Under the pieces are notes generated by a model that had not been told where the DNA came from, searched no databases, and saw nothing but the letters and a program-made list of their open reading frames with translations. Source: a virus. From it: a stretch of DNA of 44,256 bases. Location of the stretch: IMG/VR virus record IMGVR_UViG_3300033145_000171, positions 1-44,256 of that record; one strand, written 5' to 3'. Numbering within the stretch: the stretch's first letter is position 1; every line of letters starts with the position of its first letter. The translations under genes and the position numbers were made by a program. Below are positions 12,374 to 35,453 of this stretch, piece after piece.

Positions 12374-12396
12374 AATGTCAAGGCTTTGGCAGTTCA

Positions 12397-13550: not shown

Positions 13551-13559
13551 AATACCCTC

Positions 13560-14261: not shown

Positions 14262-14273
14262 AATAACCTCCTA

Positions 14274-15263: not shown

Positions 15264-15274
15264 TATAGCCTCCC

Positions 15275-15727: not shown

Positions 15728-15735
15728 GAGTTCTC

Positions 15736-16023: not shown

Positions 16024-16026
16024 CGG

Positions 16027-16413: not shown

Positions 16414-16476
16414 GATGCTCCTTTTTATGAATTCTTCCGATTAAAACTCCACACTTTAGGCACTTAAAACTTTCGT

Positions 16477-17553
16477 TTACGCAAAGGCTCCGCCGTCAAT
16501 TGTGCTGGCAGAATGCAACAACGTATTTGCCCCCGCCCCATGAACCCCGGTTGCGGCCGCGTCATGGTCAAAGGCCCAGTCGCTGTTCGGGGCCTTTTCT
16601 GTCTCGCCATTAGTCGGGGAGGCCTCAAGATAAGTAGCAGCAAAACCGACAAACTCAAGGGCTGTCTCACCTGCGTTTACCCTGGCAATCTTCAACGTGC
16701 TTCCGGTAAAATTGGCAGGGGTATCGCTCAATCCGACAAAAGTGGATACGGGAGCCGCGGCGCTTGAAAACTGGGTAAAGGTAAGACCGGTTGTATCAAC
16801 AGTGATCGTATCATTCGTGGTAAGAATCCATCCCTCATCACCGTTAGCGGTACCCTGCTCGATAAAAGTAAAGGCTCCGGCGGTGACCTCTGCGTCTGCA
16901 TCAAAGTCCGTTGCCCTTGTCAGGATAAAAGCAACCCCTGCTGTTCCCTCGGTCGTGACTTTATAGATGCCATTATCTGCGCCCGCGGCCTGGTCTTTAA
17001 CGAGGATGCGGTCATTTAGCACGGTAGCTATGCCGTCAACAGTCAAAACATCGACTGCGTCCGCTGTCAGCGTTTTTCCCACTCCTGACCCTGCCGCAGT
17101 ACATGCGGGCAATGCCGCGGCCGTGGCCAATTTACACGAAGCATGGAGATCGAGGCCGCTTAATGTAGCGTCAACATAATTCTTTGTTGCCACGTCCTGG
17201 TTAGCGGTCGGATCAACAACCCCTGTGATCTTATGTGTATTCATGGCAAAATCTGCACCGGATTGACCTGACAGAATCGCCATAATCTCCGCACCCGTAA
17301 GGGCAGCGATGTTCCCTGCTGTCTTGCGGCCGACAATCCTTTGCTCCGCAATCGTTACCGCGACAGGCGTGTCATCCGAAACCGCTGCCAACAGAGACTG
17401 TGCGTCAAACAGCTTGTGCATCACCATCTCGTGATTAGCTGCACCATCCCCGATATGAACCTGCTTGGTGTCCGTGCTGAACCCGAACTCACCGGCCGCT
17501 AAGGTCGGCAACGATGCAAAAACTCCACGTTTTACCTGAATTGTATTTGCCAT
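16477..17553 (-). CDS. Tail fibre protein
   Basis: This 358-aa protein has the anchor MANTIQVKRGVFASLPTLAA with FSTDTKQVHIGDGAANHEM (residues 1-45). A middle part contains HKITGVVDPTANQDVATKNY (the widely shared 'K-I-x-x-x-x-x-P-x-x-x-x-D-A-x-x-K-x-Y' fibre repeat, about 105-125). A beta-rich domain with DNGIYKVTTEGTAGVAF follows. It ends STIDGGAFA, a C-terminal DGGxF tag shared with the 17681-18025 gene. It lacks a signal peptide and so probably joins the virion. Confidence 0.75.
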   Translation of the reverse strand: MANTIQVKRGVFASLPTLAAGEFGFSTDTKQVHIGDGAANHEMVMHKLFDAQSLLAAVSDDTPVAVTIAEQRIVGRKTAGNIAALTGAEIMAILSGQSGADFAMNTHKITGVVDPTANQDVATKNYVDATLSGLDLHASCKLATAAALPACTAAGSGVGKTLTADAVDVLTVDGIATVLNDRILVKDQAAGADNGIYKVTTEGTAGVAFILTRATDFDADAEVTAGAFTFIEQGTANGDEGWILTTNDTITVDTTGLTFTQFSSAAAPVSTFVGLSDTPANFTGSTLKIARVNAGETALEFVGFAATYLEASPTNGETEKAPNSDWAFDHDAAATGVHGAGANTLLHSASTIDGGAFA

Positions 17554-18028: not shown

Positions 18029-20425
18029 TTACCTTGCTTCCAGTTCTTTCACTCTTGCCGAGAGTTCTTGAACTGCCTTGATTAACGGTATAATCAGACT
18101 TCCATAGGTAATGCTCTTTTTACCATTTGAAGCCGTTTTAACAACCTCCCAATCTAAACCGTTTTCGACTAAAACCTTTTCAACATCCTGTGCAATCAAG
18201 CCAAGATACGTCCGGTCATCCTCTTTAGCGTCTTCAACTCCAGCAGGTCGGATTTCTTTCGGCCAATCTAATGCTTTAATGCGCTGGTAGGTGATAGGGG
18301 TGAGAGAGTTAATAAAGTTTAAGCCAACGGGTATGTCAGTGACATTTTTTTTAATCCGTTCATCAGAATCTACAGTAAGGTCAACCTGGCAATGCAAGGC
18401 CGAAATAGAGGTATTGCCAAGGGTGGCAGTGTTTGAACCGTTTCCAATCGCGTTGTATCCGATAACGATTTCATTGGTTATTGCATCTTCGCCGCCAGAT
18501 GGGTCCGAGCCGGATTTAGTATTAGCCCCAAGATACACAGAATACTCAGGCGTTTGAAGCCAATTTGTGCCATCATTTTGATATGCTCCAGCCTCGTATC
18601 CTGCGCCAGTGTTATAAGAACCGGTTGTATTTCCCTGTAATCCGGCGCTTCCAAACCCCGCATTATATTGTCCTTCAGTATTATAATAGAGAGCACTAAC
18701 CCCAGTTGCAGTATTTATTGATGCAGTGGTATTAGACCGCAATGCGTATTTGCCTAATGCAACATTATTGTCCCCTCCTGTATTTTCATTCATGGTCTGA
18801 TAGCCAAGTGCTATATTAGAGCCACCAGTTGTATTTTTGTATAGGGCTGAAGTGCCAATGCCAACATTGTAATCGCCTTCTGTGTTAGTTACTAATGCGT
18901 TTATTCCAACTGCAACATTGCCATAACCAATAGTATTTTCATATAAACCACGATATCCAATGGCAATATTGCCATAACCAGTAGTGTTGTCATATAGAGC
19001 TTGATATCCGATTGCACTATTCTGGGAGCCTTTCGTGTTTGAATACAAACACTGATACCCCATTCCGTAATTATATGATGATTCTGTAACTAAAGTTGCA
19101 GTGCTTCCCATTGTAAGGTTGCCACAAGCAACCCCTAAAAAAGCATTGTACCCTTCAGGCTGCACAGATCCATTATGTGCCGGATTAAAGTCATACAGCC
19201 ATCTACTACCATTCTTGTAAATAATTCCAACACCAGTGCCGACATTTGCATCAACACTAATGTTTAAATTAGTTCCATCATAATTTATATACTTGTTCGA
19301 CCCGTCGCCTACATAAAAACGTGGAGTTCCACCATTGTACTGAAGTTGTATTCCAGCATTACCAAAAGTGGTGTTATTAACAGATATCGCTTTATTAGAA
19401 GCATCAAAAACAATATCAGTTCCATTCGCAAGAGTTGTCGAACTCAGAGTAAAGCCCCCGATCGTTCCCGAAGTGGCGGTCAAGGCCCCCGCCTCAGTAA
19501 CCCTAAAGGGCGCACTCGCGGGCGTAGCGTTACCTGCCCAGAACCTTACATCGTCTCCACCAGTGACATTACAGTTCATTCCTGTGGTACCGGCAGTATC
19601 TTTAATTTCATAAGTGCCAAGGGTCCAACCGCCTATCTCCCCCGATGCGGCAACAACGGTTCCTTTCAAGTAAACACTATCGGAGTACAGACCCCATACG
19701 TCCGTTGAATCCAGACCCACATCTGAGTCTATAATCCCTTGCAGCCAGCCAAGACGAGCTTTAAGGCTATAATCTGAATATGTGTTGGAGTTCCGTGCGT
19801 ATATGTCAATAAAAGGACTGTTTGCGCTTGAACTGTCTAATGTGATAAATCCTGTTTTAGAGCCTGTTCCTACGCCCATAGAAACAACAGCAGTTCCCTT
19901 TGTCCAAATCGGATTAGTGTCTGCTGTGTAATCTGCGGCCAAATCACGGGTTACGGTATATGTCGGCGCACTTCCGGCGTTTGTAACCAATAGCCATTCG
20001 TCATCTGTTCCGTCCTTTATCCTAAGCACTTCATTAGCAGAGAAGGTTGTTTCCCCTGATATTGTAAGAGTAGAAGCGTCAAGTGCGGTCATGTCAGCAT
20101 CAAGCACATCGGCACTTGAAACCATAATGAGACCGTTTACAGCGGATATAGTGTCTTTCTCGAAAACACTTGTCCTTATAATGCCCCTCGCCGTAATGTC
20201 CTGAAACTCCGCGCTTCCGTCGCTTAATATCCGCCAGCCTTTGCCAAGCGGTCCTGAAACAAAGGAATCCGTGTTTATCGAAGTACTGCCGAGCGAGTTC
20301 TTTTCACCACTACCGCAAACATAGGTTTCCTCATTATCAGCCCCAGCGCCACCTCTCTGAATAGCCCACGCAACCGGGACACTGAAAAAGATTAGTCCTG
20401 CTAATATCCATAAGAGTTTTTTCAT
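18029..20425 (-). CDS. Large tail fibre with S74 chaperone domain and signal peptide
   Basis: The 798-aa protein has four parts. A Sec signal is at 1-21 (ILAGLIFFSVPVAWA end). A region with several beta-strand fibre repeats (about 40-430) follows. Next is a block of about 11 short YadA/fibre-like repeats of type G-x-x-A-L-x-x-N-T-x-G-x-x-N (about 455-615). The last part is a C-terminal Peptidase_S74 intramolecular chaperone from SDERIKKNVTDIPVGLNFIN at about 688 to the end. It carries the Ser and Lys expected for self-cleavage. S74 domains trimerise fibres and are then removed. Receptor-binding function is inferred. The signal peptide is unexpected for a cytoplasmically assembled virion part. 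Confidence 0.8.
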   Translation of the reverse strand: MKKLLWILAGLIFFSVPVAWAIQRGGAGADNEETYVCGSGEKNSLGSTSINTDSFVSGPLGKGWRILSDGSAEFQDITARGIIRTSVFEKDTISAVNGLIMVSSADVLDADMTALDASTLTISGETTFSANEVLRIKDGTDDEWLLVTNAGSAPTYTVTRDLAADYTADTNPIWTKGTAVVSMGVGTGSKTGFITLDSSSANSPFIDIYARNSNTYSDYSLKARLGWLQGIIDSDVGLDSTDVWGLYSDSVYLKGTVVAASGEIGGWTLGTYEIKDTAGTTGMNCNVTGGDDVRFWAGNATPASAPFRVTEAGALTATSGTIGGFTLSSTTLANGTDIVFDASNKAISVNNTTFGNAGIQLQYNGGTPRFYVGDGSNKYINYDGTNLNISVDANVGTGVGIIYKNGSRWLYDFNPAHNGSVQPEGYNAFLGVACGNLTMGSTATLVTESSYNYGMGYQCLYSNTKGSQNSAIGYQALYDNTTGYGNIAIGYRGLYENTIGYGNVAVGINALVTNTEGDYNVGIGTSALYKNTTGGSNIALGYQTMNENTGGDNNVALGKYALRSNTTASINTATGVSALYYNTEGQYNAGFGSAGLQGNTTGSYNTGAGYEAGAYQNDGTNWLQTPEYSVYLGANTKSGSDPSGGEDAITNEIVIGYNAIGNGSNTATLGNTSISALHCQVDLTVDSDERIKKNVTDIPVGLNFINSLTPITYQRIKALDWPKEIRPAGVEDAKEDDRTYLGLIAQDVEKVLVENGLDWEVVKTASNGKKSITYGSLIIPLIKAVQELSARVKELEAR

Positions 20426-20437: not shown

Positions 20438-21205
20438 TTAATTATCTGAACGATTTCTCTCATACCAAATACTTGAACCTGCATCCCACACCAGTTCTAA
20501 AATGTCTCCAACACCCAACGTAAAGGCTACATTCCCTGAAAGTGCCGTATTGCAGGCATCGGCAATCTGAACCGTATTGGAATCACTACATCCCTGTATT
20601 ATGAGAAGTTGCCCGTCATACGTTCCGTTTGCTATTGCAGGGTCGGTATCGAGAACGACCGCCCCGCCATTGCCAGCTACTCGCATTATGGAATTTGTGG
20701 TAGCTATCGAGGCGTCATTCGCATAGGTTGTGGGGGAGGCTGTTGTGGTATTTGGGGTTGTTGTGATAGTCGCACCTTCGACATTCCCCGTACCGGTTAC
20801 GCTGGTAAATGTAGGGGAGTCCCCCGTGCCTAACCCAAGACTTGTCCGGGCTGTATTTCCTGATTCATACGCAAAGACTCCTGCACCCGTAGCCACAATA
20901 AATTGACCGTCTGAGGCTGAGGCTCCAAGAGTGTCAAGGTCTTCGAGTACGCCATCTAACACTGCGATTTCTTCCCAAATAGCCGCCCCCGCCGTGTTAT
21001 CAATCAGCAGATAAAATTTATCGTTGGTTTCGTCTACCCACAGGTAAGGCACTCCGAAATTGTGATCATTTACAGTAGGCGCGGCAGTCTTTTTAATATA
21101 GGGAATTTTACTGGTGTCCCACCCAGACGAATCCCAAGCATAAGATCCACCTGCGAAAACGAACAGGCAGACAACAGCTATCAATATTAATAAGAACTTT
21201 TTCAT
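20438..21205 (-). CDS. Fibre-like protein with signal peptide
   Basis: The 255-aa protein starts with a strong Sec signal (LLILIAVVCLFVFAGGSYA, cleavage after SYA near residue 23). The next part, SKIPYIKKTAAPTVNDHNF with VPYLWVDETNDKFYLLID, is a typical phage-fibre 'aPt.ndh.~GvP.lWvde' module. A beta-rich C-terminal domain follows. It precedes the large S74 fibre and, with it, forms a secreted pair. Its location after HNH cassette B suggests that the cassette promoter could also transcribe it. Confidence 0.65.
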   Translation of the reverse strand: MKKFLLILIAVVCLFVFAGGSYAWDSSGWDTSKIPYIKKTAAPTVNDHNFGVPYLWVDETNDKFYLLIDNTAGAAIWEEIAVLDGVLEDLDTLGASASDGQFIVATGAGVFAYESGNTARTSLGLGTGDSPTFTSVTGTGNVEGATITTTPNTTTASPTTYANDASIATTNSIMRVAGNGGAVVLDTDPAIANGTYDGQLLIIQGCSDSNTVQIADACNTALSGNVAFTLGVGDILELVWDAGSSIWYERNRSDN

Positions 21206-21222: not shown

Positions 21223-21972
21223 CTAAGATGGAAAATTTAGTGGGTGCCCAGCATCCAGTTTTTTGGCAGCTCGGTCATATGCTCTTGCTGCTTCTATTGG
21301 GTCAGAATAAGTCCCAAGGTGGTAACGCTTACAATCGCTTTCTATTCTTGCCACCCATTTCTTATCACGTTTGTTAAAAGACAATCCTCGGAACCCGCTT
21401 GTATTGCTTGCCGTTAATAACCTTTTGTTTCTTGCACTTAAACCAGCATCAACAAAACGACAATTTGACGGAGAATACCCATCATTTACGTCAATTCTAT
21501 CAAGCAAAAGACCTTTTCCCCATCCATTAGATTCTGCCCATTCAATGAAAGCACTTGGATCGTTTAGCCATTCATCACAAACGGTTATTCCTCTGTCGCC
21601 CCAATCTTTAAAGCGATCATATTCAGAGTTGTTGCATCGTCGATTCATATTTGCCCATATATGATAAAGGGGATGCCCACGCAACCCGTGGGTTTTGCAT
21701 CTACAAACTGTTTCCTCTTTTCTAAGACACCCGCAAGATCTTGTGGTCCCTCTCTTCAGGCACTTCCATAAGGTTTCAGTGATATCGCCACAATCACATT
21801 TAAGTTTTAGCTTCCTACCTGTTTGCCCTGAGGGGTCAATGTAAGGTTCCACTTCTCCAATCACGGTTAGCCTACCGAATCGCATACCGATCATATCTTC
21901 AGTCTGATATTTGCGTTTTTTGTAATTTGGTTGATATTCTTTCTTTGATTCTGCTATACTGGATTTAGCCAT
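21223..21972 (-). CDS. HNH-type homing endonuclease with AP2 domain, cassette B
   Basis: The 249-aa protein (start chosen at GGAGGTAGGTATC-ATG) has three parts. A zinc-binding N-terminal part (about 22-95) contains MRFGRLTVIGEVEPYID and CDCGDITETLWKC...SCGCL. The nuclease core (about 105-175) has LYHIWANMNRRCNN, GDRGITVCDEWLNDPSAFIE and LLLDRIDVNDGYSPSNCRFV. A C-terminal AP2/ERF-like DNA-binding domain (about 185-240) has GFRGLSFNKRDKKWVARIES and EAARAYDRAA. Enzymes of this family cut DNA at or near their insertion site to copy themselves. It has its own promoter and hairpin leader and lies between two virion genes. Confidence 0.8.
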   Translation of the reverse strand: MAKSSIAESKKEYQPNYKKRKYQTEDMIGMRFGRLTVIGEVEPYIDPSGQTGRKLKLKCDCGDITETLWKCLKRGTTRSCGCLRKEETVCRCKTHGLRGHPLYHIWANMNRRCNNSEYDRFKDWGDRGITVCDEWLNDPSAFIEWAESNGWGKGLLLDRIDVNDGYSPSNCRFVDAGLSARNKRLLTASNTSGFRGLSFNKRDKKWVARIESDCKRYHLGTYSDPIEAARAYDRAAKKLDAGHPLNFPS

Positions 21973-22007
21973 GATACCTACCTCCACAAAAGGTGGTTGA
22001 TTGGTGA

Positions 22008-22041
22008 GAAGCGGTATAGGGACACCACCCTGTATCGCTTC
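22008..22041 (-). other. 5'-leader hairpin of HNH cassette B
   Basis: Fourteen-base arms (22008-22021 and 22028-22041) pair at 12 of 14 positions around a 6-base loop, just after the predicted start of the cassette B transcript. A second short hairpin (CCAC-CTTTT-GTGG) lies immediately before the GGAGGT ribosome site and could modulate it. Confidence 0.6.
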
Positions 22042-22045
22042 GTTA

Positions 22046-22074
22046 TGTATAGCTAAATTTAGCATAGTTGTCAA
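22046..22074 (-). promoter_or_regulatory. Sigma-70 promoter of HNH cassette B
   Basis: Leftward TTGACA (22074-22069), a 17-base spacer and TATACA (22051-22046). It starts about four bases after the stop codon of the gene at 22079. The spacer ends with a perfect 12-base palindrome, GCTAAATTTAGC (22052-22063). Confidence 0.7.
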
Positions 22075-22078: not shown

Positions 22079-22462
22079 TTATTGAAGTGCGAGGATCGCT
22101 GAGACGGCTATATCAGCCGCCGTGCCTGTTTCCGTACATTTGATTGCCATTCTTTGCACCAGGTTTATATTGAACGGATAAATATGTTCTCCGTCAGCCT
22201 CCGGCCCACTCGTTTTTGTAAACGCAGTGACAATATCGTTGGCATTATTTACTTTGATAAAATTCTCCACGAGAGCATCTTCATTATTCGACCCTACCCA
22301 TTCAAACTTACAGGTTCCATCCCCGGTCAAGTCCGTTATGTGAAGAGAAGCATTACCCGCCAATTTCTTCACATCGAATATGTCAGAATATACCGTTGTG
22401 TTTTTTACAATCGCTTTCGCGTCAAAGATTTTCACTATTGTGGTTGATCTGTTTAAGTCCAT
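22079..22462 (-). CDS. Small virion protein, unknown
   Basis: The 127-aa product is beta-rich (ASLHITDLTGDGTCKFEWVG at about 38-57, then PFNINLVQRMAIKCTETGTA). This kind of small all-beta protein is common among phage decoration or fibre-collar proteins. It is preceded by a terminator (22487-22519) and the ribosome site AGGAGGCTAAA. After its stop codon HNH cassette B begins. The specific role is not established. Confidence 0.55.
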   Translation of the reverse strand: MDLNRSTTIVKIFDAKAIVKNTTVYSDIFDVKKLAGNASLHITDLTGDGTCKFEWVGSNNEDALVENFIKVNNANDIVTAFTKTSGPEADGEHIYPFNINLVQRMAIKCTETGTAADIAVSAILALQ

Positions 22463-22564: not shown

Positions 22565-25500
22565 TTATTCGTTTAGCTTCGCTCTTCTTCTTAACTCTCT
22601 CTTTGTTGGTTTGAAACTACGCCTGATATTTGTCCTAATAGATTTCTTAGCAATAAAAGGTATAATTCCAACCAGTTTCATTCTCTTAATACGCTCATTG
22701 TACTCCCGGATGTCCTCTAAAATATCTGCCCAATCCGCTTTGTTCCGGTCCTCTACAGGTCTAAGCATGAATTTCATAATCTTGCTATTAATGTCGGACC
22801 TTCGCTCTTTCCATCTTCGTTCCTGTTGTCTCTCTGCCCACTTCTGTTCCCGGATTTTGGCAATAGCCGCAGGGTTAAACGATAATCCCCTCAAGATTGC
22901 ATCTGTCATATCCGCTTTTACCCTGTCCCTACCATAGAAGATAGGCACGTTTCTACGGGTTGTAAGGCCTTCCGTGGCCTCCCTGTACGCTTTTAAGGGT
23001 GCAGCAAGGGCTAAGGGTGCAATCTTCTCTAAACCCTTGCTTATGTCGCCTTTAAGGAGATTCTCACCGCCATAATAGAAATCGGTAATTACACTTCCGG
23101 GAGCGCCTAATATATCTTTCCATGTAGTCGGAAGGTCTGTTATCCCTATTTCAAGGGAGCCTTTTAAGTTCATGCCTATAAGACCAAACCCGCCGAACCT
23201 GGCAAAGTTTTCAGCATAAGCACCTATATTCGCTTCAAGCCAATTATACATATCCTCTTCAGGGTCATCAAGATCCCTAGCCATCCCGATGGCCTTCATG
23301 ATTAAATCCCATCCTACCACTCCGCCTGCACCTGCAAGAACAGCAGGGGATAAAGCCATATAACTAAAAGCCTTGCCATGTTTAGGTGTCCACCCCTCCC
23401 CCCAAAGGTCTTTCATTGTTAGCATGTAGTTATGAGAGAATGTCCTGAACACATAAAACGCTTTCATCACTTGTGCCGCGGGGTGCGATCCCCTGGCAAT
23501 CGAGGGCCAGTTTGCCTTTCCGTAAGTAGCATGAGACTGATCTGATATCTTTTTAGCAAGGTTTAACATTGCATCATGGTCTGTCTGGCCTTGTGCTTTA
23601 AGGCCAAGATAGGCCCCTGCAATCGTGGAAACACGGTTTAATTGTTCTGTGACCCCAAACGCTACCATGCTCCAATCAATCGCTTTATCCCATCCACGGC
23701 CTGCTTTACCTCTTAGAACTGCCAACGCTTCCCTATTATATTGGGCGTTATGCCAGCCTTTGTTGTGGATTTCGTCAAACAGGAGTTGAATATCAGCCGG
23801 AAGTGATTCTTTATTGCCAAACTTGTACGTCCCGTAAAGCTTACCAGCTTTAGCGAGATGCCCAAAGGTCTTATGGAGGGGAATGTTGCCAAATCCGTGC
23901 ATAGAGGCCGGTACACTGGTCAGGAGAGCCGTTAAGTTGACGAGGGGAGCTGATACCCTGCCTCCGAGATACTTGAGGACAGCAATACCCTTTATGGTTC
24001 CTGTAAGTCTGTCTATGGCCTCATCGTTTCTAAGCATGTGTTCTATATAGGATTTACCCTCTTTGAAACCGTTTTCCTGATTCACGGGGTCAACACGTCT
24101 CTCCTCTACAAAATCAAGATAATCCTCGTAGGTAACATCCTCACCCTCTAAGCCTTGAAACTCTTTCCAGCTTATATCGGTTCCAGTGAAATGAGCCAGC
24201 ATATCACGAGCCATGATCTTCTTGGCTTCTCCCGCAGATACGCTTCTGGCGTACTTGGCGAGGGCGATTCCGGGATCTTCCTCGTACCCCTCCCAAACCT
24301 CTAACCCTTTAGCGTCAACTCTCTGTATCATGTGAGCCCTGACCCCACGGCCTTTAATGATATTAGAGACCTGTTCGACTAAGGCCTTGGCGAATACGGC
24401 GCGAGTTTGCGTATCCACGTCCACGGCGGCCTGTTCAAAGGCTATGACTTTAGCAAGACGATTCTCGAAATAAGAACCTGGATTCTGAAAATGCCACACC
24501 TTAGGGCCAGTCTTTCCTTCCCCTTCTGAGGGATACCACTTACCGCCCATTTTTTTAAAGATAGGGGTTAAAGTCTTAGGTGCGGGGCCTGTAACCATAA
24601 AGTCCCGCTTTCCAGGTCCTAACTTCCGATCTACTACCGTAAGACCAAAATCCTTTAGCTCAAACTTCCTTGTCCGTATCCGCTTTAAAGCCTCGTTGAT
24701 AATGGCCTCCTGCGCCACTACCTGCCCGGCCATCTCAAACACATCTTCGATCATACGCTTTTGAGGTTCTACGGTAGTCGTGTAGCCCTCTGTTCGTTTA
24801 CGGGCCGCCCACCCATCAGCCAATATTTTAAGTTCAAAGTGTTCCCTTCTGGGATGCGCCCCCCTCTTCTCGGCAAACACCACAAAACGCCCCGGCTTTC
24901 TTATACGAGGCATATAATACCCTCTTATGCTTCCCATCTTAGCGAGGGCGAGTTTCAGGTTTACAGTGACGGCCTTACCGTCCACATTTACTGTTTCTGT
25001 AGGAAGCTCCTGCTCTATCTCTTTATAATGAGCCTCCAAGTCACGCATGGCCTGAAAGAGAATGTCAAAACCGTTGTTTGTAATTCTACGCCCGGCTATC
25101 AAAGCATTGACCGCTTGATCTGAGACTCCGGTCTTACGGTAGTCCTTGGCCTCTGCCTGTATCATGGCTTCAACGGCTTGCTGTTCCGCGCTTATGCCAG
25201 CTTCCTCCGTAAAAGTAGCAATAGGGAGATCTCCATCTTTAGCCTTAACCGCAAACAGATCCCATGCGTTAACACCTTCAATATCTTGATTCTTGGCTAT
25301 ACTGTACCCTATCCCGTTCTGGTCACGGTATTTGAGGTATTTCTTGTATTTACGGTATCCGGCCTTGTCCTGCTTCCTGAAGTTGTCTATTTCAACAGTG
25401 AAATAATGACCATCATTTGCCATTGTGATACCATCTAAGATGATATGCCGGTTATCTACGTTTTTAAGTCCATCCATGAACACCCGGCCAAGGGCTTCAA

Positions 25501-28500
25501 TCTTATGAAAGAAGTGAGCAGGCACAGATAACAACCTCTCCCATGATTTAACATCCGTTTTGGTCGTTTTCAATCCCTGTTTACGGACTGCCATGAACTG
25601 TCTGACAACATCCCATGTGTTGGTGGCGTCTTTCAGGTGTTCCTTGTCAAACGTCTTCTCTTCCCTCCTAACCTTCTTCTCGACATCGGGCCGCTTACTT
25701 TTGGGCTGGGCGTCAAGGAAGGATTTTATGTAGGCCTTGGCAAACTCTTCGGGGGATTGTGTGGGCTTGCCTTCAATCGTTATAGCCCCTGTCTCACTGG
25801 TCAGAATCTTCTTAGCGGTAGCATACAGGTCTTTCATGACCGCCTTGATCTTATCCCACACTTCGGCAAAAACTTCTTTCATCCTTGCGGTGAACTGCTC
25901 AAGAGTGGTATGCCCCTGGTTTATCACGTCCTTTGCAGTGGTTAGGACTCCATCGTATATTTCAGGTACGCTTTGGAGGGCTTCGAGGGATATGAAACCT
26001 TCTTGATCTTTGAGTAGGTCTGTGGCCTTACGGGGTTCAGCTTCCCCCGACTTATCAACTACAACCATTCTACCTGCAACACCAGTTTGTCGAATAGCCT
26101 GATCTATTTCAATGAGACGTTCCCGGGGAACTGTAAGCTGTTCTTCTGTAAATGCTCCACTTGCGATGTTTCGTTCAATGAGCTTTTTTTGCTTTTCGAG
26201 TTCTTTGCGTTTGGCGGGTGTTAGTTTAACGTCACCAGAAAAGAACTTATCTATGGCGGCTTCCATGCCCTGTTGTGTGATTTTCTCTTGGGCGGGGGTG
26301 GGTTTCGCCTTGGGAGCCTTGGTGGGGGGTTGGTCAAACATATCCAACGTCTCACCCTTTTCAGGGCCAAACAATTTCTTTTGTTTACCTGGTACGGTCT
26401 TGATTCCTTCACCGGCAGGGAATATAGTTTTGGTGGGTTTCTTCTCAGGACGCTCGACTACGCCTTCTTTTTCAAGTAGTGCAACCTTTTCGTGTGCGGT
26501 GGGTTCTTCAGGGGTTAGCTCGAAGGCTTTTGTTTCTTCTCCGGTTTCCCAATTGAATCCTTTTTGGTCAACTGGATCTCGGCCACTCGTTCTCTTTTCA
26601 GCTTCCTCATTTGCCTTTTGTATGCCAGCTCTTTCAGCTTCGCTAACGTCATTTTTCGACACTCCTTTTTCAAGTTCCTGTGCCTTATAGAAGTCTATCT
26701 CATCTTGTATTAATTTGTCAAGGGATTCGTCAGTCACCCTCTCACGCGGATTAAGTTCAAGCGCCCTTATAAAATCATCTTCAGTGGCCCCTTTAGGCAA
26801 CCAGCCTGCCTCAACGGCTGCTAACGTCATTTCGTCAATGCCTAATGCAGAGTTTTTGAATATCCCCGGTGGCATACCTTTCATGCCTGCCCTGCCGACA
26901 ATATCCCTGATTTCACCTGCCCATGTTTTGTCTTTACGTTGGATGCCGCCAGCGTATTTAAGCCACATCCTGAAGGACTTGGCTTTATTGGCCTTTTCCC
27001 TTTGCTTAACTATTTGTTTTTCTTGGGCGAGGATCTTTTGTGCTTCCGCTGTGGTGGGTTCAACCTTCTCCCCTTCCTTAGTGGGGGGTTGCATTTTCGC
27101 TACTTCGCCAATTATCGGCTTGTCGTATAGTCCATCTATCTTTTTCTTTATAATGTTTTGTGCCGCAGGTGATAAGTCTTCCCATTTAGATTCTGCAATC
27201 TTCTCACCTAACTTGCTCAATTTACCTTTCTTCGTTACCCACTGAGCGTCAGTAACTATTGCAACTTTTCGGCCTAACTTGAGCTTCTTGTCCCATGTGT
27301 ACTGGTATTTCGCTTCCCCCACACCCTTCTCAACCTCTGCGGGTTTCTCCACGACGTCGGAACCTTTAACCCCCGGCGCAAACTCTTCCAGTTTTCCGTA
27401 GTCTTTCTCGTGTAGGTCTTTGTATTGTTCAGGGGCGAGGGCGCCGGATTCGAGAGCTTGTTTGACAGCTTCTCGGTGCATCTTCTTTACCTCTCCAATT
27501 CCAGCACGGATTTGAACATCTTCTAAAACTTTCCGGTAAGGCTTGTTCCATATTTTAAAAGAATCAACCCAGTTTGAAGCAGCAATAAGATGGGTTCTCA
27601 ATATAGATTCCCGCGCTGTTTCAGGCAACGAAGCTAAAACACGGGCTGAAATATTTGTATCTCTTGGGGAATTAGTGATAGAAGCTATGTGGGATTGTTT
27701 CCACATTTTGAGTTGGTTGGAGTCAATCTCAGATTCGTCAACACCTTGGCGAACAATGTTTTGCTTTTTGGCTTCAATCGCCTCATCAATCGTCATCTCT
27801 GACGGCTGTTTAGCCTCAACCGGCAAGGATTTCTTGTCAGTTGGCTCGACGTCGGGAGTGGGTTGCTGTGGTTTCAACTGCTGCACTAAGTCATAGACTT
27901 CTTTCGGAAAAGACCTTAACTTCTTCCCATCAAGGTATGCTGTATATGCACTCTTTGTCTCCCCTAAAGGCTTATTTGTATCAATCGGAACTTTTTCTTC
28001 TTTAAACTCAATGTCTTTATCCTCGGCTATTTGCTCGGCTACTTCTCTATGGGTAAGCCTCTGTTTATTGTCCCAGTTTTCAGGTTCAACAAACCACGCT
28101 CTGACATTATTTTTATCAGAAGATATCGGTTTGTCCAAAACATCAACAGCCTTGCCCTTCTTTACTTCTATCTCACCTTCTACAGTAGGCTCTACGACAC
28201 CAAGAGCGACCTTCTCAGGCTCAGGCTTAGTAGGGGTAGGCTTTACAGGCTTGGCGATTGTGGGGGGTTCTGTGGCCCCTATCGGTTGCTGCACAATGTC
28301 CATAAATTCAATAACCTGCTCAACCTGATTCCTGACATTCGCGCTTAATATCTCGTTTAGGTCTAACTTTAGTTCAGGGTACTGATCTTTTATGGCGTCA
28401 ACCTGGTCTGTAGTGAGTTTGCCGGTTGAGAGGTCTTGGCTAACTTGGGCAATAATGTCTACTCGCGCCTTCTCTTCTATCTCACCCTTTAAGTCATTAA

Positions 28501-29542
28501 CGGCATCGCTTACCTCTTCATCCGTAACCCCGACATCCTTGGCTTTCTTGCTCACTATTTCGAGCTTTGACATAACCCCGCCAGCGATACCACCAGCCCC
28601 GGCACCGCCTATCAAGGCCTCAACAATACCCTCTGCAAGATCCCGAGTAGGCTCATATCCCATTTTTGCAATAAGGTTTTGCCATATCTGCTGAGAGCCT
28701 TCCTGCATACCCTCAATTCCCATGCCTTTACCAGCGGCTTTGACGGACGGCAAACGCCCTGCCGCCTTACCCGCTTTTGTTCCAATACGTAAGAATCGAC
28801 CAATGGCAAGCGATTCAAGAATTGCTGTTCCTGCTGTGGACGCTAACCCTGATACCGATGCTTCTGATATGCTTTTCCCGGCTTCCCTGGCTTCCTCGTA
28901 TTGCCCACTACCCTCAAGAGTAGCAAGGGCCGTACCGGCTAACCATGACGCGGCTGTACGGCTTAATCCCGCTGCCATACCCGCGCCACCTGTCATAAGA
29001 GCCGCGCCTAATGACGGTAATGCTTCTGAGATAATCCCTACCGCCCTCTTGAAAGACGGAGTTTCCATGAAGGTTCCACGGTATAGGCCCTTATCCCCTG
29101 CGAATACCCCTTCTTGTGACGCCTTTCTCCAATACTCAGACGCTTCTTTTCCAACCTTTGCAAGGGGGTCAATACCTGTAACATCCCCGGCCCATCGAAC
29201 AATAGACCCCACACCACCTGCAAGGCCCATAGTTCCGCGTACAAGACCCTTGCCGACAACTTCACCATAGCCCGGTTCGTTTGCCTCAATCCACTCTTTG
29301 CCCGTCTGCTCAAGCTCATCAATCGTAGGCGCATTATAAGGGGCAATAGGATCACGTCTTATGGCTTCCATACCCTGTTCAAGCACATACGAATCCCGGT
29401 CAGGATTATCAGTTTTCAGCTTTCCATACTCGGTTTCAAGCCAACTAAACCGTTGCGCTGACTGTTCTTCCTCTGTCGGCTTAGGAGTTGAAAGCTGTTT
29501 GTAATAATCTATGGTTTTTTGATATGGGTCAGTTTGAGACAT
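22565..29542 (-). CDS. Giant LPD38-like polyvalent/ejection virion protein
   Basis: This 2325-aa protein (alternative start 29584, 14 residues longer) seems to be an injected virion protein. After a soluble start, residues about 96-326 are glycine/alanine-rich and hydrophobic (VVGKGLVRGTMGLAGGVGSI, LPSLGAALMTGGAGMAAGL), able to enter membranes. A very long charged linker follows (Lys/Glu/Pro-rich). From about 1350 comes a folded part with IRGYYMPRIRKPG near 1540. A C-terminal LPD38-like part (about 1870-2040, LTALLTSVPASMHGFGNIPL, FGVTEQLNRVSTIAGAYLGL) is followed by further hydrophobic stretches. Polyvalent proteins with LPD domains are carried in the virion and enter the cell with the DNA. 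I see no lytic-transglycosylase motif. The exact activities are unknown. Confidence 0.7.
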   Translation of the reverse strand: MSQTDPYQKTIDYYKQLSTPKPTEEEQSAQRFSWLETEYGKLKTDNPDRDSYVLEQGMEAIRRDPIAPYNAPTIDELEQTGKEWIEANEPGYGEVVGKGLVRGTMGLAGGVGSIVRWAGDVTGIDPLAKVGKEASEYWRKASQEGVFAGDKGLYRGTFMETPSFKRAVGIISEALPSLGAALMTGGAGMAAGLSRTAASWLAGTALATLEGSGQYEEAREAGKSISEASVSGLASTAGTAILESLAIGRFLRIGTKAGKAAGRLPSVKAAGKGMGIEGMQEGSQQIWQNLIAKMGYEPTRDLAEGIVEALIGGAGAGGIAGGVMSKLEIVSKKAKDVGVTDEEVSDAVNDLKGEIEEKARVDIIAQVSQDLSTGKLTTDQVDAIKDQYPELKLDLNEILSANVRNQVEQVIEFMDIVQQPIGATEPPTIAKPVKPTPTKPEPEKVALGVVEPTVEGEIEVKKGKAVDVLDKPISSDKNNVRAWFVEPENWDNKQRLTHREVAEQIAEDKDIEFKEEKVPIDTNKPLGETKSAYTAYLDGKKLRSFPKEVYDLVQQLKPQQPTPDVEPTDKKSLPVEAKQPSEMTIDEAIEAKKQNIVRQGVDESEIDSNQLKMWKQSHIASITNSPRDTNISARVLASLPETARESILRTHLIAASNWVDSFKIWNKPYRKVLEDVQIRAGIGEVKKMHREAVKQALESGALAPEQYKDLHEKDYGKLEEFAPGVKGSDVVEKPAEVEKGVGEAKYQYTWDKKLKLGRKVAIVTDAQWVTKKGKLSKLGEKIAESKWEDLSPAAQNIIKKKIDGLYDKPIIGEVAKMQPPTKEGEKVEPTTAEAQKILAQEKQIVKQREKANKAKSFRMWLKYAGGIQRKDKTWAGEIRDIVGRAGMKGMPPGIFKNSALGIDEMTLAAVEAGWLPKGATEDDFIRALELNPRERVTDESLDKLIQDEIDFYKAQELEKGVSKNDVSEAERAGIQKANEEAEKRTSGRDPVDQKGFNWETGEETKAFELTPEEPTAHEKVALLEKEGVVERPEKKPTKTIFPAGEGIKTVPGKQKKLFGPEKGETLDMFDQPPTKAPKAKPTPAQEKITQQGMEAAIDKFFSGDVKLTPAKRKELEKQKKLIERNIASGAFTEEQLTVPRERLIEIDQAIRQTGVAGRMVVVDKSGEAEPRKATDLLKDQEGFISLEALQSVPEIYDGVLTTAKDVINQGHTTLEQFTARMKEVFAEVWDKIKAVMKDLYATAKKILTSETGAITIEGKPTQSPEEFAKAYIKSFLDAQPKSKRPDVEKKVRREEKTFDKEHLKDATNTWDVVRQFMAVRKQGLKTTKTDVKSWERLLSVPAHFFHKIEALGRVFMDGLKNVDNRHIILDGITMANDGHYFTVEIDNFRKQDKAGYRKYKKYLKYRDQNGIGYSIAKNQDIEGVNAWDLFAVKAKDGDLPIATFTEEAGISAEQQAVEAMIQAEAKDYRKTGVSDQAVNALIAGRRITNNGFDILFQAMRDLEAHYKEIEQELPTETVNVDGKAVTVNLKLALAKMGSIRGYYMPRIRKPGRFVVFAEKRGAHPRREHFELKILADGWAARKRTEGYTTTVEPQKRMIEDVFEMAGQVVAQEAIINEALKRIRTRKFELKDFGLTVVDRKLGPGKRDFMVTGPAPKTLTPIFKKMGGKWYPSEGEGKTGPKVWHFQNPGSYFENRLAKVIAFEQAAVDVDTQTRAVFAKALVEQVSNIIKGRGVRAHMIQRVDAKGLEVWEGYEEDPGIALAKYARSVSAGEAKKIMARDMLAHFTGTDISWKEFQGLEGEDVTYEDYLDFVEERRVDPVNQENGFKEGKSYIEHMLRNDEAIDRLTGTIKGIAVLKYLGGRVSAPLVNLTALLTSVPASMHGFGNIPLHKTFGHLAKAGKLYGTYKFGNKESLPADIQLLFDEIHNKGWHNAQYNREALAVLRGKAGRGWDKAIDWSMVAFGVTEQLNRVSTIAGAYLGLKAQGQTDHDAMLNLAKKISDQSHATYGKANWPSIARGSHPAAQVMKAFYVFRTFSHNYMLTMKDLWGEGWTPKHGKAFSYMALSPAVLAGAGGVVGWDLIMKAIGMARDLDDPEEDMYNWLEANIGAYAENFARFGGFGLIGMNLKGSLEIGITDLPTTWKDILGAPGSVITDFYYGGENLLKGDISKGLEKIAPLALAAPLKAYREATEGLTTRRNVPIFYGRDRVKADMTDAILRGLSFNPAAIAKIREQKWAERQQERRWKERRSDINSKIMKFMLRPVEDRNKADWADILEDIREYNERIKRMKLVGIIPFIAKKSIRTNIRRSFKPTKRELRRRAKLNE

Positions 29543-30516: not shown

Positions 30517-31787
30517 TATGCACCTCCTACGCTACTACCTGAATTGTAAAACCCGGCTGGCACAATTATCCATGTTTCAGTAAGGGTCGCCCCGGTATTT
30601 AATAGACTTAAATTCTGCCAGTTGAACCCGCCTGTACCGCTACCGTCCCGCCACGTCTTGAGCAGGCCCACACGTTCATCAACCTCATATTCCAGAAAGT
30701 CACTTGATTTAACAATGATTTCCTCGTTCTTGACCCATATTTTATACCTGTTTCCGACCTCTCCATCACCGGGTGTAAAGTCCTCATCAATGACCTGCAC
30801 TTCCTTAACAATCCCGGAAGTATAAAACTCGGTCTCCAACCAGTGCCCGGAATACAGAAAAGGCGAAGTCTCCTGAAACCACCAGCAATGTAAAGGCCAT
30901 GGCCTGCAAAGCATCCCCACAAACTCACCGGGTACTATCTCGGTATTACCCTCAGTAATCCAGTACCTAAGCCACTGGTGTAAGGGCGGGTTATCAAGAC
31001 CGTCAAAGTCTTCGGCAAACAGTTCAACCCTGATATCGTCCTCTACAAGATACCCCTTGCTCATGAGCTTTTCACCGGCCACCTCAGAACGGCTTACCTC
31101 AAAAGGCGGCAGCAGTTCTCCGCCCTGTACTGTGCCGTTCTCATAGTCAACCGGTTTCATGCGGCCGCTTGTCCCTCTGGACAAAGAGCTTTCAGTTGTG
31201 AGAGAGATATTAAACATAACTCCCAAGGGTCCCACAGGGAAGGCGATATACCCCACGTAGTCGCATGTGTTCTGCTTAGGCCTGTTAGAGGCATAGTTTA
31301 TACTGCCCCCGGTCTGCATGACCTCATACCGTGCCTCTTTGACTGTATATTCTTTAGTCCCAAAGCTATCAAATAATACGCCGTTACCGCCGCCGCCGGA
31401 TAGAGAATAGACTCCTGGAGTCGGTTTCGACTCGGGAGAGAGTAGAGGTTTCGCATCATCAATCTCCGAAAAGAAGTCAGCCATCTTAGCCATGGTTTCT
31501 TCTTTAGTCTTCCCGCCGAACTCAAGGATATTCCCGGCATCAAACAAGTACCAGATGTCATAGGCGGTACTTATACCCAACCCAACCCGCATAAGAGCAT
31601 CATCAGTACCGTAATTAAGAGTCCTGTCTCCTGGCGTAAAAACCAATCTATCAGCCAGCTCGCTCAAACCAGCAACGTCCCAAAGGGCTTGTACCCTTGC
31701 GAGAATACCACCAACAATGTTAGTCCCTGGAGGAAAGCCCGTCCTTATTCTGTATAAGTATTGAAGATATGGATTATCCTTAGCCAT
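30516..31787 (-). CDS. Virion protein downstream of HNH cassette C
   Basis: The start at 31787 (MAKDNPYLQYLYRIRTGFPP) gives 423 aa. It overlaps the end of HNH gene C: the last codons GAT GGC TAA contain the ATG. The N-terminal part is helical (GLGISTAYDIWYLFDAGNIL); the rest looks beta-rich with many aromatics (PLHQWLRYWITEGNTEIVPG, and CRPWPLHCWWFQETSPFLYS). It lies between the coiled-coil proteins and the disordered protein, so a tail or ejection-complex part is likely. No family recognised. Confidence 0.55.
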   Translation of the reverse strand: MAKDNPYLQYLYRIRTGFPPGTNIVGGILARVQALWDVAGLSELADRLVFTPGDRTLNYGTDDALMRVGLGISTAYDIWYLFDAGNILEFGGKTKEETMAKMADFFSEIDDAKPLLSPESKPTPGVYSLSGGGGNGVLFDSFGTKEYTVKEARYEVMQTGGSINYASNRPKQNTCDYVGYIAFPVGPLGVMFNISLTTESSLSRGTSGRMKPVDYENGTVQGGELLPPFEVSRSEVAGEKLMSKGYLVEDDIRVELFAEDFDGLDNPPLHQWLRYWITEGNTEIVPGEFVGMLCRPWPLHCWWFQETSPFLYSGHWLETEFYTSGIVKEVQVIDEDFTPGDGEVGNRYKIWVKNEEIIVKSSDFLEYEVDERVGLLKTWRDGSGTGGFNWQNLSLLNTGATLTETWIIVPAGFYNSGSSVGGA

Positions 31788-32445
31788 CGGGGATCTCATT
31801 CAAGTAAGCGAATTTTCCAAAATATTTTAGGGCGGCTTTATTGTAAGCCCGAGCCGCGTCTACCCTATCTTCAAACATACCAAGATGGATTTCACCACCC
31901 TTATATCCAATTCGAGCCCGATATTTCCCGGACTGCTTATGAAAATGGACACCTTTGAATCCAGTCTCACTACAAGGTCGGATAGATAGATTAGCTTGAT
32001 TTTGTAATCTCGTAGCAAAACGAAGATTGCAACGCCTGCTATCGAGACGTTTTCTGTTTATATGATCAACTTCCAAGCCTTCAGGTGGGTGACCAAGTAT
32101 AAGATGGTATATATATAAACTCGTTTTGTTATCAAGACGTGTTGAAACAAGATTATCCTTGTTCACACCCCATTTATATTGCTTAACAAGAGACAAGTCA
32201 GCGGTATCTATTAAAGCAAAGGTTTTGAAATGCCCCCTCCGGTCTCTTAACTCAATCTTGCAAATATCGCCTTCTATCCTAAATCTATTCTTGTCCTTGT
32301 GACTATAGAACGAATTTCCGAATATCTTCCCTTTCATGCGAAACTGCTCATAATGCCTCTTGCAAAAATCCTTTGCATAAAATTTACGAGGACATCCTTC
32401 AACTTGACAAACTCTCTTTGATTGTGTTACAGACTTGATAGTCAT
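31780..32445 (-). CDS. HNH homing endonuclease with AP2 domain, cassette C
   Basis: The start was set at 32445, after GGAGGTATGACGCC, because upstream codons precede the predicted transcript start. The 221-aa protein has an N-terminal zinc-binding part (CQVEGCPRKFYAKDFCKRHY, about 13-32) and an HNH core (YHLILGHPPEGLEVDHINRK, LDSRRCNLRFATRLQNQANL, about 115-155). An AP2/ERF-like domain follows (GFKGVHFHKQSGKYRARIGY, ARAYNKAALKYFGKFAYLNE, about 165-215). It ends over the start of the next virion gene by 8 bases. Own promoter and hairpin leader. Confidence 0.85.
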   Translation of the reverse strand: MTIKSVTQSKRVCQVEGCPRKFYAKDFCKRHYEQFRMKGKIFGNSFYSHKDKNRFRIEGDICKIELRDRRGHFKTFALIDTADLSLVKQYKWGVNKDNLVSTRLDNKTSLYIYHLILGHPPEGLEVDHINRKRLDSRRCNLRFATRLQNQANLSIRPCSETGFKGVHFHKQSGKYRARIGYKGGEIHLGMFEDRVDAARAYNKAALKYFGKFAYLNEIPDG

Positions 32446-32478
32446 GGCGTCATACCTCCTGTGTATGATGTTATTGAT

Positions 32479-32514
32479 GAGGGGCTGTTGGAAGTTACAC
32501 CTTCCTTCAGCCTC
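32479..32514 (-). other. 5'-leader hairpin of HNH cassette C
   Basis: Leftward strand: GAGGCTG, then AA, GGAAG, loop GTGTAA, CTTCC, AA, CAGCCCCTC. The inner 5-bp and outer 7-bp arms pair with a symmetrical 2x2 internal loop and a 2-base bulge. It begins next to the predicted transcript start and has no U-tract after it. Confidence 0.6.
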
Positions 32515-32519
32515 GTTAT

Positions 32520-32548
32520 ATTCTAATTGATTCAGCATAATAGGTCAA
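32520..32548 (-). promoter_or_regulatory. Sigma-70 promoter of HNH cassette C
   Basis: Leftward TTGACC (32548-32543), a 17-base spacer and TAGAAT (32525-32520). It begins eight bases after the stop codon of the coiled-coil gene at 32557. Confidence 0.65.
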
Positions 32549-32556: not shown

Positions 32557-33918
32557 TCAAGCCGCTCCGACTGAATGAGTCAAAGTGTTAATAATATCCG
32601 CATCGGCCACCTGCTGAGTAGCATCTATAGCGGCATCAGCCTTATCCCAGGCCGCCCGGCGTCTTTCAAGGTTAAGGTCAGTCCTATCGTCCGCGTCCTC
32701 TACCCTCAGTTCCTTTTCATCGTCTTCAAACCCTTTCCTGGAGTCAAAGGCGCCTAATCTGATAGCTTTTATCAGGTCGTCTGCAATAGTCTGTTTCTGG
32801 CTCATCCCTATTTCAGCCGCAGACCTGGAGTCCTCATGCTCAATCTGCTTTGCGCTTAAATCTTCTTGTGTCGTTGTCTGCTCGTCAATCAATGCCGTTT
32901 CGTCAATTACATGCTCTCCCTTAGAGTCGATTAAGACTTTTTCCTGTACCAGCAGCTCGTTTTCCGCCCGCATAGCCCGTTTGTCAGCTAAGGCAATAGT
33001 GTGTTCACTATCTATAAGCCCTAACTTAACTGTGTCGGCCTCAATCCCGGCGGTCTGTGCTTCTAATTCATATTGCCGTGCCTCTGTCTCTACGATCTGA
33101 ACATCAACCTCTGCTACTCTTACGGCCACTCCCTTTGTGTCCCGCTGTATCTTCTTGCCGTCTACCTCTGCCCTGGTCTTGGCAATCCCGGCGTTGGTAA
33201 TATCAAGATCCACCCCGGATTCCTTAACCTCAGTCTCAGACTTTCTTATACCTATTTCGTCAACCTCGTTTCCGGCCTCGGTAATCTGAAGGTCGGTGTT
33301 AGTCTGGTCAATCCCCGTCTGGGTAATTGCTAATTGAATATCAAGACCCTTCAGCCCTGCTTCTATAACCGCAAGGTCGGCCCTGGCCGCTCTAAGCTCC
33401 TGCTCTGTAATGTCAACATCTACAAGCTGTTGCGCCACGTCCTCTAACTCAACCCGCATTTCAAGGTCTTTTATCTTTTGTGTGGCTTTATCCCAGGCAA
33501 GTTGTACTTTTGCCACCATCGTTGTAATGGCCGCCTCATCAGCCTCAAGCGCGGCAGTCCGGGCGTCATACTCATCGTCTAAGGCGTCTATCTTCTGGCC
33601 TCTTGTCACTATGTTCGCATCGTGAATCTGATTGTCAATCTTTTCAATATAATATTTGGCAGCTGCTTCTAAAGCATACTGAGTCTCTTCATTGGTAATC
33701 TGAGCAATAGCGACGGTATAGGTATCAACCAGCTTTGCAAGGTCTTCTGTCTCGATTTCCTCAAGATAGTTGTGGCCGTGAAGGTAGGTGTTGGCATACA
33801 GACCAAAGACAATGGTTCTTTCGACCTCTTGAGTGGTATTGAAAGGCCCGTTATGCTCAAACGGGTTCCAGATTATTGATTCCCGGGTCGCACCACGCTC
33901 ATAAATTGTTGATGTCAT
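32557..33918 (-). CDS. Long coiled-coil virion protein 2
   Basis: The 453-aa protein has a short folded start (residues 1-65, with VERTIVFGLYANTYLHGHNY). Then it is almost all one amphipathic helix with many Ala, Asp, Glu and Ile (LAVIEAGLKGLDIQLAITQT; DLDITNAGIAKTRAEVDGKK). The rhythm is short imperfect repeats of I-D/A-x-T. No transmembrane segments. It is paired with 34041-35453, similar in size and composition, suggesting an old duplication or a hetero-complex such as ejection-complex or internal-core proteins. Membership in a known family is not recognised. Confidence 0.55.
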   Translation of the reverse strand: MTSTIYERGATRESIIWNPFEHNGPFNTTQEVERTIVFGLYANTYLHGHNYLEEIETEDLAKLVDTYTVAIAQITNEETQYALEAAAKYYIEKIDNQIHDANIVTRGQKIDALDDEYDARTAALEADEAAITTMVAKVQLAWDKATQKIKDLEMRVELEDVAQQLVDVDITEQELRAARADLAVIEAGLKGLDIQLAITQTGIDQTNTDLQITEAGNEVDEIGIRKSETEVKESGVDLDITNAGIAKTRAEVDGKKIQRDTKGVAVRVAEVDVQIVETEARQYELEAQTAGIEADTVKLGLIDSEHTIALADKRAMRAENELLVQEKVLIDSKGEHVIDETALIDEQTTTQEDLSAKQIEHEDSRSAAEIGMSQKQTIADDLIKAIRLGAFDSRKGFEDDEKELRVEDADDRTDLNLERRRAAWDKADAAIDATQQVADADIINTLTHSVGAA

Positions 33919-34040: not shown

Positions 34041-35453
34041 CTACCTCAGTAGGTGCACCAACTGACTTGTTATCTCCGTCTCAGACGCTATATCCGCAGT
34101 CTCTTCTCTTTCATGTATCCAGGCATCGGCAAGACGCTGTATCTCTGCAATCCTGGCAGGCAACTCAAGAGCATTGACCTCTCTCATAGTCTCTAAGGCA
34201 ATCTGCTTGGCATACATCTCCAAATCTATCTGAGCACTGGTCAAGGCACTTTCCTGCGCAATTTGAGCAGTCAAGGCTGTCTCTCTCTCGGCAAGCCACT
34301 CAGCCGCGTTTTCAATCTTGGCCGTTAAGAGGTCTGTCTGTCCTACCATTCTGGCAGTCCGTAGGCCTAACTTTGCCTCCCTGAGAGCTAATTCCAGGAT
34401 GTTTAAAGCCACCCTTGAATCTATAAGGTCTCCCCGCTTGTCTACCCTTTCCTCTCTGAGGGTCGCCATATCCTCTTTAATGACTGCAATCACTTCTTTT
34501 ACCACTATCCAGGCATCTATCTCCGCAGCATGAGCAATCAAAGCCGTGGACTTGTCGTTGATATACGGAATCAAGTTTTTCTTGGCCGTGATAAGGTCCT
34601 GCCTCACATCGTCCAATCCGCTCAAGGCTAATATGTACTGTTCCAGGTATCCGACATTGATCAATTCAACATCCGATATCAGCTCCTTAGCGGTTATCAA
34701 AGCTTGACGTTTGACAACTAAAGACTGTTTGGCCGCTATCAGTTCTATTATGGCATCGGCTATCAACTCCCTGGCGTCAACCAGGTCTTCCCTTTTGTCG
34801 TTTAAAATCTTTTTTTCAGTGATAAGAGCGTTCTTCCGGTCTGCATTATCCTCTTCCGCGTCTATGACAAGCTGCTGTTTCTCAAGGACGGTCTCAATAT
34901 AGGGTATAACGTCGAGCTTCTTCCGTGCAGTGGTAAGCCTGGCCGCGAGTAAGGCGTCTTCAGCCGGGAAGGTAGACTGATCCACTAATGTCATTTCCTG
35001 CCTGTACCCTTCCATCTCGACATCGAGGGCGGTCTTACTTGCCATAATAACGAGCTTTCTAAGGTTTGTGGTGATCTCAAGACGGTTAAGCTGTTGGTTG
35101 TCAAGATCCCTGACAGCCTTGTTGTCGGCAAACTCCTGCTGCATGGTAGTTAAGAGCGTAGACTTTTCTAATTCCCAAGTTATTATGGCCTCTTTGACTG
35201 CGATATCGTAGTCAAAACCTGTTTGAGCGAGTTCGCGGGTGATTGCCTGCTCTACAATCTCGTAGTTGGCCTGTGACAGATCAAACTTGGCTTTGCGCTC
35301 AAGGCCGGTAATCATCTGACCTAAATAGCCGGGACGGTAAAGCAGGCCTTGACCACCTACTTGATCTTCAATTTGTTTGGCTGTGACAAGATAGCTGTCC
35401 AAAATGGGCCGCTTCTTTTGAAACCATAAATTCTGTTCAGCCGTTTGGCTCAT
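34041..35453 (-). CDS. Long coiled-coil virion protein 1
   Basis: The 470-aa protein is nearly all helix. After a start containing YRPGYLGQMITGLERKAKFD (about 39-58), heptad-like repeats run to the end, such as KILNDKREDLVDARELIADA and IIELIAAKQSLVVKRQALIT, with an approximately 22-residue rhythm. The ATG overlaps the stop of the small protein at 35450 (ATGA). Such all-helical proteins beside a giant ejection-like protein are usually internal core or tail-needle parts; this is inference. Confidence 0.6.
   Translation of the reverse strand: MSQTAEQNLWFQKKRPILDSYLVTAKQIEDQVGGQGLLYRPGYLGQMITGLERKAKFDLSQANYEIVEQAITRELAQTGFDYDIAVKEAIITWELEKSTLLTTMQQEFADNKAVRDLDNQQLNRLEITTNLRKLVIMASKTALDVEMEGYRQEMTLVDQSTFPAEDALLAARLTTARKKLDVIPYIETVLEKQQLVIDAEEDNADRKNALITEKKILNDKREDLVDARELIADAIIELIAAKQSLVVKRQALITAKELISDVELINVGYLEQYILALSGLDDVRQDLITAKKNLIPYINDKSTALIAHAAEIDAWIVVKEVIAVIKEDMATLREERVDKRGDLIDSRVALNILELALREAKLGLRTARMVGQTDLLTAKIENAAEWLAERETALTAQIAQESALTSAQIDLEMYAKQIALETMREVNALELPARIAEIQRLADAWIHEREETADIASETEITSQLVHLLR

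Follow-up and report, generated by a model that had tools for sequence, protein, structure and literature searches.

What does a phage gene that fills 15.8% of its record encode, and how might the product contribute to infection? The DNA analyzed here (the window, 44,256 bases) is a single IMG/VR virus record that may be a fragment of its genome. An earlier note on this sequence had described a 2325-residue protein taking up about one-sixth of the window; the open frame is confirmed, but it lies on the minus strand, where it runs uninterrupted from the ATG at 29542 to 22565. An alternative ATG at 29584, on the same strand, would yield a protein of 2339 aa. The start at 29542 is better placed, directly after the stop of the upstream gene and with a GGA 8 nt 5′ of the ATG. 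Residue numbers run from the ATG at 29584 (the 2339-aa version), and the features are collected in Table 1.

Table 1. Features of the giant ORF and its upstream neighbor in the window
Feature	Residues	Coordinates	Strand	Basis
Giant ORF, without a Cys codon	2325 aa (or 2339 aa)	22565..29542	-	Frame reading, codon count
PLxRFG/tail-700 C-terminal module (includes 1350-1860)	~1306-2336	22577..25669	-	Alignments, NF032893, model matches
NCBIfam NF032893 match (profile 188-665 of 681)	1858-2322	22619..24013	-	HMM
Small alpha/beta insert domain within the module	1634-1716	24437..24685	-	Alignment, model
Variant PLxRFG motif, YMPRIRKPG	1557-1565	24890..24916	-	Alignment
Helical module	~1178-1309	25658..26053	-	57% identity to part of the 3694-aa giant P0002
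Polyvalent-associated module	~840-1085	26330..27067	-	Common to L009 (39%), L104/L105 (35%), P0002 (34%)
Charged, poorly conserved linker	~441-839	27068..28264	-	Composition; no relatives found
Gly/Ala-rich amphipathic N-terminal domain	~66-440	28265..29389	-	Composition, relatives, weak PHROG 2206 match
Upstream ORF, Cys-free, low complexity, adjoins the giant gene	323 aa	29545..30516	-	Composition

Neither Pfam nor the PDB sequences gave a meaningful match to the giant protein, nothing matched it in a plasmid search, and none of 50,697 phage records came close at the DNA level to positions 18001 to 43000 of the window. Unlike its relatives, the protein has no recognizable enzymatic or DNA-binding domain above the Pfam cutoffs, and a motif scan along its whole length found no Walker A, HExxH, DPPY-type, or Cys nucleophile motif.

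The C-terminal ∼1,030 residues, on the other hand, belong to a known family, as a divergent PLxRFG/tail-700 module. The NCBIfam profile NF032893 ("tail-700, PLxRFG domain-containing protein") matches with 125.5 bits (E = 2.3e-36), above its curated cutoff of 100, as it does in all 21 aligned module members; the match is confined to the second part of the module, where tblastn also found weak matches (residues ∼1864 to 2249) in F116-like Pseudomonas and other giants. In close relatives, ∼1,000 C-terminal residues are colinear at 32 to 62% identity, which argues against a chance resemblance. An AlphaFold model of residues 1140 to 2339 (pLDDT, 69.5; pTM, 0.61) was compared with BFVD using Foldseek and gave 58 matches at an E value of ≤1e-3, extending over ∼1,100 columns (best E = 4.2e-22), several of which carry the name "Large polyvalent protein-associated." Matches to the predicted fold of the module also include the giants of ICP2 and P12053L, and weak matches were found to "Internal virion protein D" of CRP-4 and CRP-5 (E = 4e-7 and 7e-7; TM, 0.30 to 0.37). 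Fold searches of the PDB with the module models returned no match at an E value of ≤1e-3, VIA-align yielded short helical or small-domain matches alone (Z < 7), and hhalign found no sequence similarity between P12053L gp42 and the module (probability, 0.8%; E = 0.073). The LPD38-like C terminus proposed earlier did not hold up: hmmscan gave no match to LPD38 (PF18857) at an E value of ≤1, and a family search was likewise empty. As the positive control of the family search also gave no match, hmmscan is the stronger of the two tests.

Residues 1350 to 1860 had been said to match nothing and to be a possible site of an unrecognized enzyme. Both statements give way to the reading that this stretch is most likely the first half of the same known, little-studied tail module. 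Residues 1306 to 1868 align with the stretch upstream of the NF032893 match in seven distant members, at an identity (14 to 16%) low enough that the alignment is possibly forced, but it is backed by weak colinear HMM matches at the module start (L058, E = 4e-4; L018 and L060, E = 4e-3) and by the long BFVD matches of the model. The literal sequence P-L-x-R-F-G is absent, and P1559-R-I-R1562-K-P-G1565 aligns in its place; all 21 aligned rows have its P and R, and the distant members have PLxRFG (6/7) or PFSRFG (1/7) at this position. Because the literal motif is missing, we filed the giant protein as a divergent variant and not as a typical tail-700 member. A separate enzyme hidden in this stretch would agree with its own model, which is of a mixed alpha/beta type and fairly confident (pLDDT, 72; pTM, 0.65), and the lack of any PDB match to that model at an E value of ≤1e-3 is compatible with an unknown fold. 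We nevertheless hold such an enzyme to be very unlikely given the colinearity with the first half of tail-700 in PLxRFG-bearing members, the coverage by long BFVD matches, and the protein-wide absence of the catalytic motifs listed above. In addition, the positions conserved in 17 or more of the 21 rows (Y1557, P1559, R1562, G1565, G1575, I1753, R1755, G1766, and D1770, among others) form no obvious catalytic set. The supposed enzyme is thus replaced by a defined module that many genes for giant phage proteins share; a single scan of virus contigs yielded 143 relatives.

Within this half of the module lies the small insert domain, which is present in 8 of 14 close rows (the window, L007, L009, L010, L013, L090, L098, and L099) and which 6 of the 13 close relatives lack or carry in reduced form (L011, L012, L014, L095, L100, and L101). 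L007 carries a second copy elsewhere, at residues 140 to 203. The insert resembles eIF1 and a GyrA subdomain (Z, ∼5 to 6.6), a similarity within the range of common arrangements.

The relatives were collected using a small alignment of the tblastn matches as a profile, which gave 143 confirmed IMG/VR loci, of which 80 were retrieved and eight are close (46 to 68%). A second profile gave 13 virus loci, some of them on contigs already collected, together with four MAG contigs of Desulfobacterota. Among close relatives the N-terminal part varies while the C-terminal ∼1,000 residues stay. Upstream of the module, L007 carries Eco57I/SNF2/ResIII/Helicase_C and ART-PolyVal domains, L010 carries AAA_34 and Helicase_C_4, L013 carries ART-PolyVal and RadC, and L011 carries a subthreshold ART-PolyVal, and the front parts of L090 and L009 have ParB-like or polyvalent PHROG matches. 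The fronts of relatives thus hold a methylase-helicase, a Strawberry-notch helicase, an ADP-ribosyltransferase, or RadC, none of which is recognized in the window protein. A constant tail with exchangeable N-terminal modules is also the arrangement of polyvalent proteins and DarB-like giants, the former described by Iyer et al. 2017 (PMC5512222), and the giant protein shares modules with other polyvalent proteins (L009, L104, L105, and P0002); it differs from the class in having neither a recognized catalytic domain nor LPD38. Compared with tail-700/PLxRFG proteins of the F116, H66, ZX1, and YF1204 type, it has the same C-terminal module position, a module score above the cutoff, and giant size, and it departs from typical members in having PRIRKPG for PLxRFG, the alpha/beta insert, no recognized upstream enzyme, and ∼14 to 27% identity to PLxRFG-bearing members. 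PLxRFG is mentioned in 4 open-licence PMC papers, two of which call its function uncharacterized or guess at it, and the available portions of the AH14a and SU10 phage papers hold nothing on this class of giants. In L102 and L096 the giant gene is interrupted, by either assembly error or real decay. A Cys-free giant of 3694 aa in L002 (positions 5945 to 17029) combines RadC with a Zeta-toxin-like kinase and a region matching a portal-associated PHROG; it has two linker modules in common with the window protein, and no alignment to the tail module of the latter was found.

Toward the other end of the protein, Gly and Ala make up 28 to 38% of residues 101 to 350, and hydropathy over 19 residues peaks at only ∼1.5, so the region is amphipathic and not clearly transmembrane. 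The "membrane-like" N terminus of the earlier note therefore stands as to its composition, and a clear transmembrane segment does not. The domain recurs in other giants (L090/L106, 39% identity; L104, 53%; L105, 49%; L107, 45%), including L104, whose frame ends at the contig end, and L107, both with no detectable tail-700 match. Among named phages, no relatives of the domain were found beyond a chance match. The charged linker that had been noted between the two ends is borne out, with D, E, K, and R mostly at 28 to 46% per 50 residues across residues ∼440 to 1340.

Not one of the 2325 codons of the gene specifies Cys. The 37 other window ORFs taken as genes have 91 Cys in 9,698 aa, a rate that predicts 21.8 for the giant protein (P = 3e-10). 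The other five frames of the gene hold 39, 100, 98, 74, and 69 TGT/TGC triplets and the gene itself has 39 TGG codons, so the exclusion acts on the amino acid and not through base composition. Among giants of >2,000 aa from the retrieved IMG/VR loci, read stop to stop, 44 of 73 lack Cys and the maximum is 6. We also cut 87 proteins (each ≥1,800 aa long) back to their first Met and merged them at 70% identity; the resulting 38 representatives hold 24 Cys in 121,788 aa (29 have none), alongside 1.2% Trp, 1.4% His, and 2.6% Met. The tail-700 members counted are Cys-free or nearly so, including the giants that carry a methylase, helicase, ART, or RadC.

Proteins of named phages served as controls, those that are ejected being assigned partly from record notes and partly from general background. 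Cys is rare in gp14, gp15, gp16, gp6.7, and gp7.3 of T7 (2/2448, versus 15/2424 in five other virion proteins; gp15 and gp16 together have 0/2065), in gp7, gp20, and gp16 of P22 (0/1309, versus 21/2693 in other virion proteins), and in N4 gp50 (0/3500, versus 8/2992 in other virion proteins). It is likewise missing from JC1 gp69 (0/4515) and from giants of VS-ABTNL-3 (0/1790), Y11 (0/3372), and P12053L (gp42, 0/1487). The exclusion is not absolute, as gp15, gp16, and gp17 of epsilon15 contain 4 Cys in 2394 aa, and Cys is present in proteins of contractile-tailed phages (P1 DarB, 9/2255; P1 DdrB, 2/995; T4 Alt, 3/682). Low Cys is also partly general to virion proteins, since at the rate of other N4 virion proteins the absence from the giant protein has a P value of only 0.002.

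Passages in papers on N4-like virion RNA polymerases (vRNAPs) tie Cys absence to passage through the tail or periplasm (PMC3715699, PMC2784036, PMC3915230, and PMC4837373), some of them citing Kazmierczak 2002, and another paper counts Cys absence among its grounds for proposing vRNAPs in StenR_269 and Zobellviridae (PMC10747016). Among open-licence PMC papers, we recognized none that links Cys absence to polyvalent or PLxRFG proteins. A feature that we found in print only for N4-like polymerases and similar giants is extended here to a whole class of giant phage proteins, which gives a cheap and testable signature of injection with the DNA and questions vRNAP assignments that lean on Cys absence. 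We see evenly balanced chances that large proteins which phages eject through the envelope of Gram-negative cells, and not by way of a contractile tube, generally bear near-total Cys exclusion as a mark of their transit; this would hold for the whole PLxRFG/tail-700 class regardless of the enzyme carried. If the mark is general, sequence alone would suffice to tell which proteins are injected, and the giants proposed as vRNAPs in StenR_269 and Zobellviridae may instead be ejection proteins of the module's fold, a reassignment suggested by the fold matches of the ICP2 and P12053L giants.

Taken with the homology and the relatives bearing polyvalent enzymes, the complete Cys exclusion supports the earlier proposal of an injected polyvalent protein, and we infer that the giant ORF probably encodes a member of this class that is packaged in the capsid and ejected. 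The gene lies among structural genes, after two medium-sized ORFs and upstream of the tail spike genes. A P22-type head-closure homologue in the window (phrog_8040) and the lack of any match of the giant protein to tape-measure families together suggest a short tail. The virion evidence comes from analogues, because neither JC1 gp69 nor T7 gp16 matches tail-700. According to PMC9144972, JC1 gp69 was found in virions with 51 unique peptides; considered as a virion-proven homologue, it was missed by both the module HMM and NCBIfam and is an analogue only. Epsilon15 gp17, considered as a tail-700 protein, gave no match. T7 gp16 resembles the giant protein in its slot before the tail fibers and in being Cys-free, and the weak match to CRP-4/CRP-5 internal virion protein D hints at a fold that the two may have in common; it differs in that no lytic transglycosylase domain was found in the giant protein by Pfam and there is no sequence match.

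In the mechanism that we propose, the protein would be packed in the virus head, where the C-terminal module may act as a constant chassis that docks it in the head or portal and permits exit through the tail. The chain would leave via the short tail, largely unfolded, and enter the cell together with the DNA or before it. On emergence of the chain, the N-terminal Gly/Ala domain, as a mobile module, may insert in or pass through the inner membrane, with the polyvalent linker modules lying between this domain and the chassis; as no enzyme is recognized in these linker modules, the giant protein probably serves mainly DNA entry. Avoidance of Cys would allow the chain to cross the tail and the oxidizing periplasm unfolded, without disulfide traps.

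Other identities fit parts of these data. Many relatives are annotated as DarB-like antirestriction proteins or DNA methylases, as would suit a nonvirion antirestriction or host takeover protein made after infection, yet the giant protein has no methylase or helicase, its gene sits in the structural block, and Cys exclusion would have no evident reason in a protein confined to the cytoplasm; we regard this reading as improbable. The tape-measure protein of a long-tailed phage, which we consider highly unlikely, would likewise be large, helical, and Gly/Ala rich, and some relatives stem from records named as siphoviruses (VS-ABTNL-3 and Y11). Tail-700 membership without a tape-measure family match argues against it, as do the methylase/helicase and ART domains of relatives and the head-closure homologue, which fits a short tail.

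Least probable of all, and extremely so, is a vRNAP like N4 gp50. The N-terminal domain weakly matches PHROG 2206 "virion RNA polymerase" (E = 1.5e-9, residues 66 to 385), as do L104, L105, and L107 (E = 1.5e-4 to 2e-8), and the injected N4 gp50 is similarly giant and Cys-free, with large noncatalytic N- and C-terminal regions. The match is, however, limited to positions 193 to 597 of a 3406-position profile, and no T7-like RNA polymerase core was found in Pfam, in PHROGs beyond the N terminus, or in PDB sequences. There is also no sequence similarity to gp50: an HMM of the N-terminal domain, which gave 0 matches to reversed control sequences, scored N4 gp50 negatively, so homology of the domain to N4 is not shown.

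The 323-aa upstream ORF is a possible partner ejection protein. Two further Cys-free ORFs, of 453 and 470 aa, lie on the minus strand at 32557 to 33918 and 34041 to 35453, and all three are candidates for additional proteins of the capsid or the ejected set. The two medium-sized ORFs upstream of the giant gene showed no similarity to the ejection proteins gp7, gp20, gp14, and gp15 and no homology in the records of 14 relatives. Directly after the giant gene, a 127-aa ORF (22079 to 22462, minus strand) has counterparts at the equivalent position in L102 (43%) and L013/L093 (35%). Spread across the structural block are three ORFs for homing endonucleases of the HNH type, one of which has an AP2 domain (21223 to 22074, 31780 to 32538, and 39464 to 40291, minus strand). 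Two adjoining minus-strand ORFs (18029 to 20425 and 20438 to 21205) encode a tail spike or fiber with a Peptidase_S74 chaperone end and a protein whose depolymerase-type C-terminal beta sandwich falls just below the Pfam cutoff.
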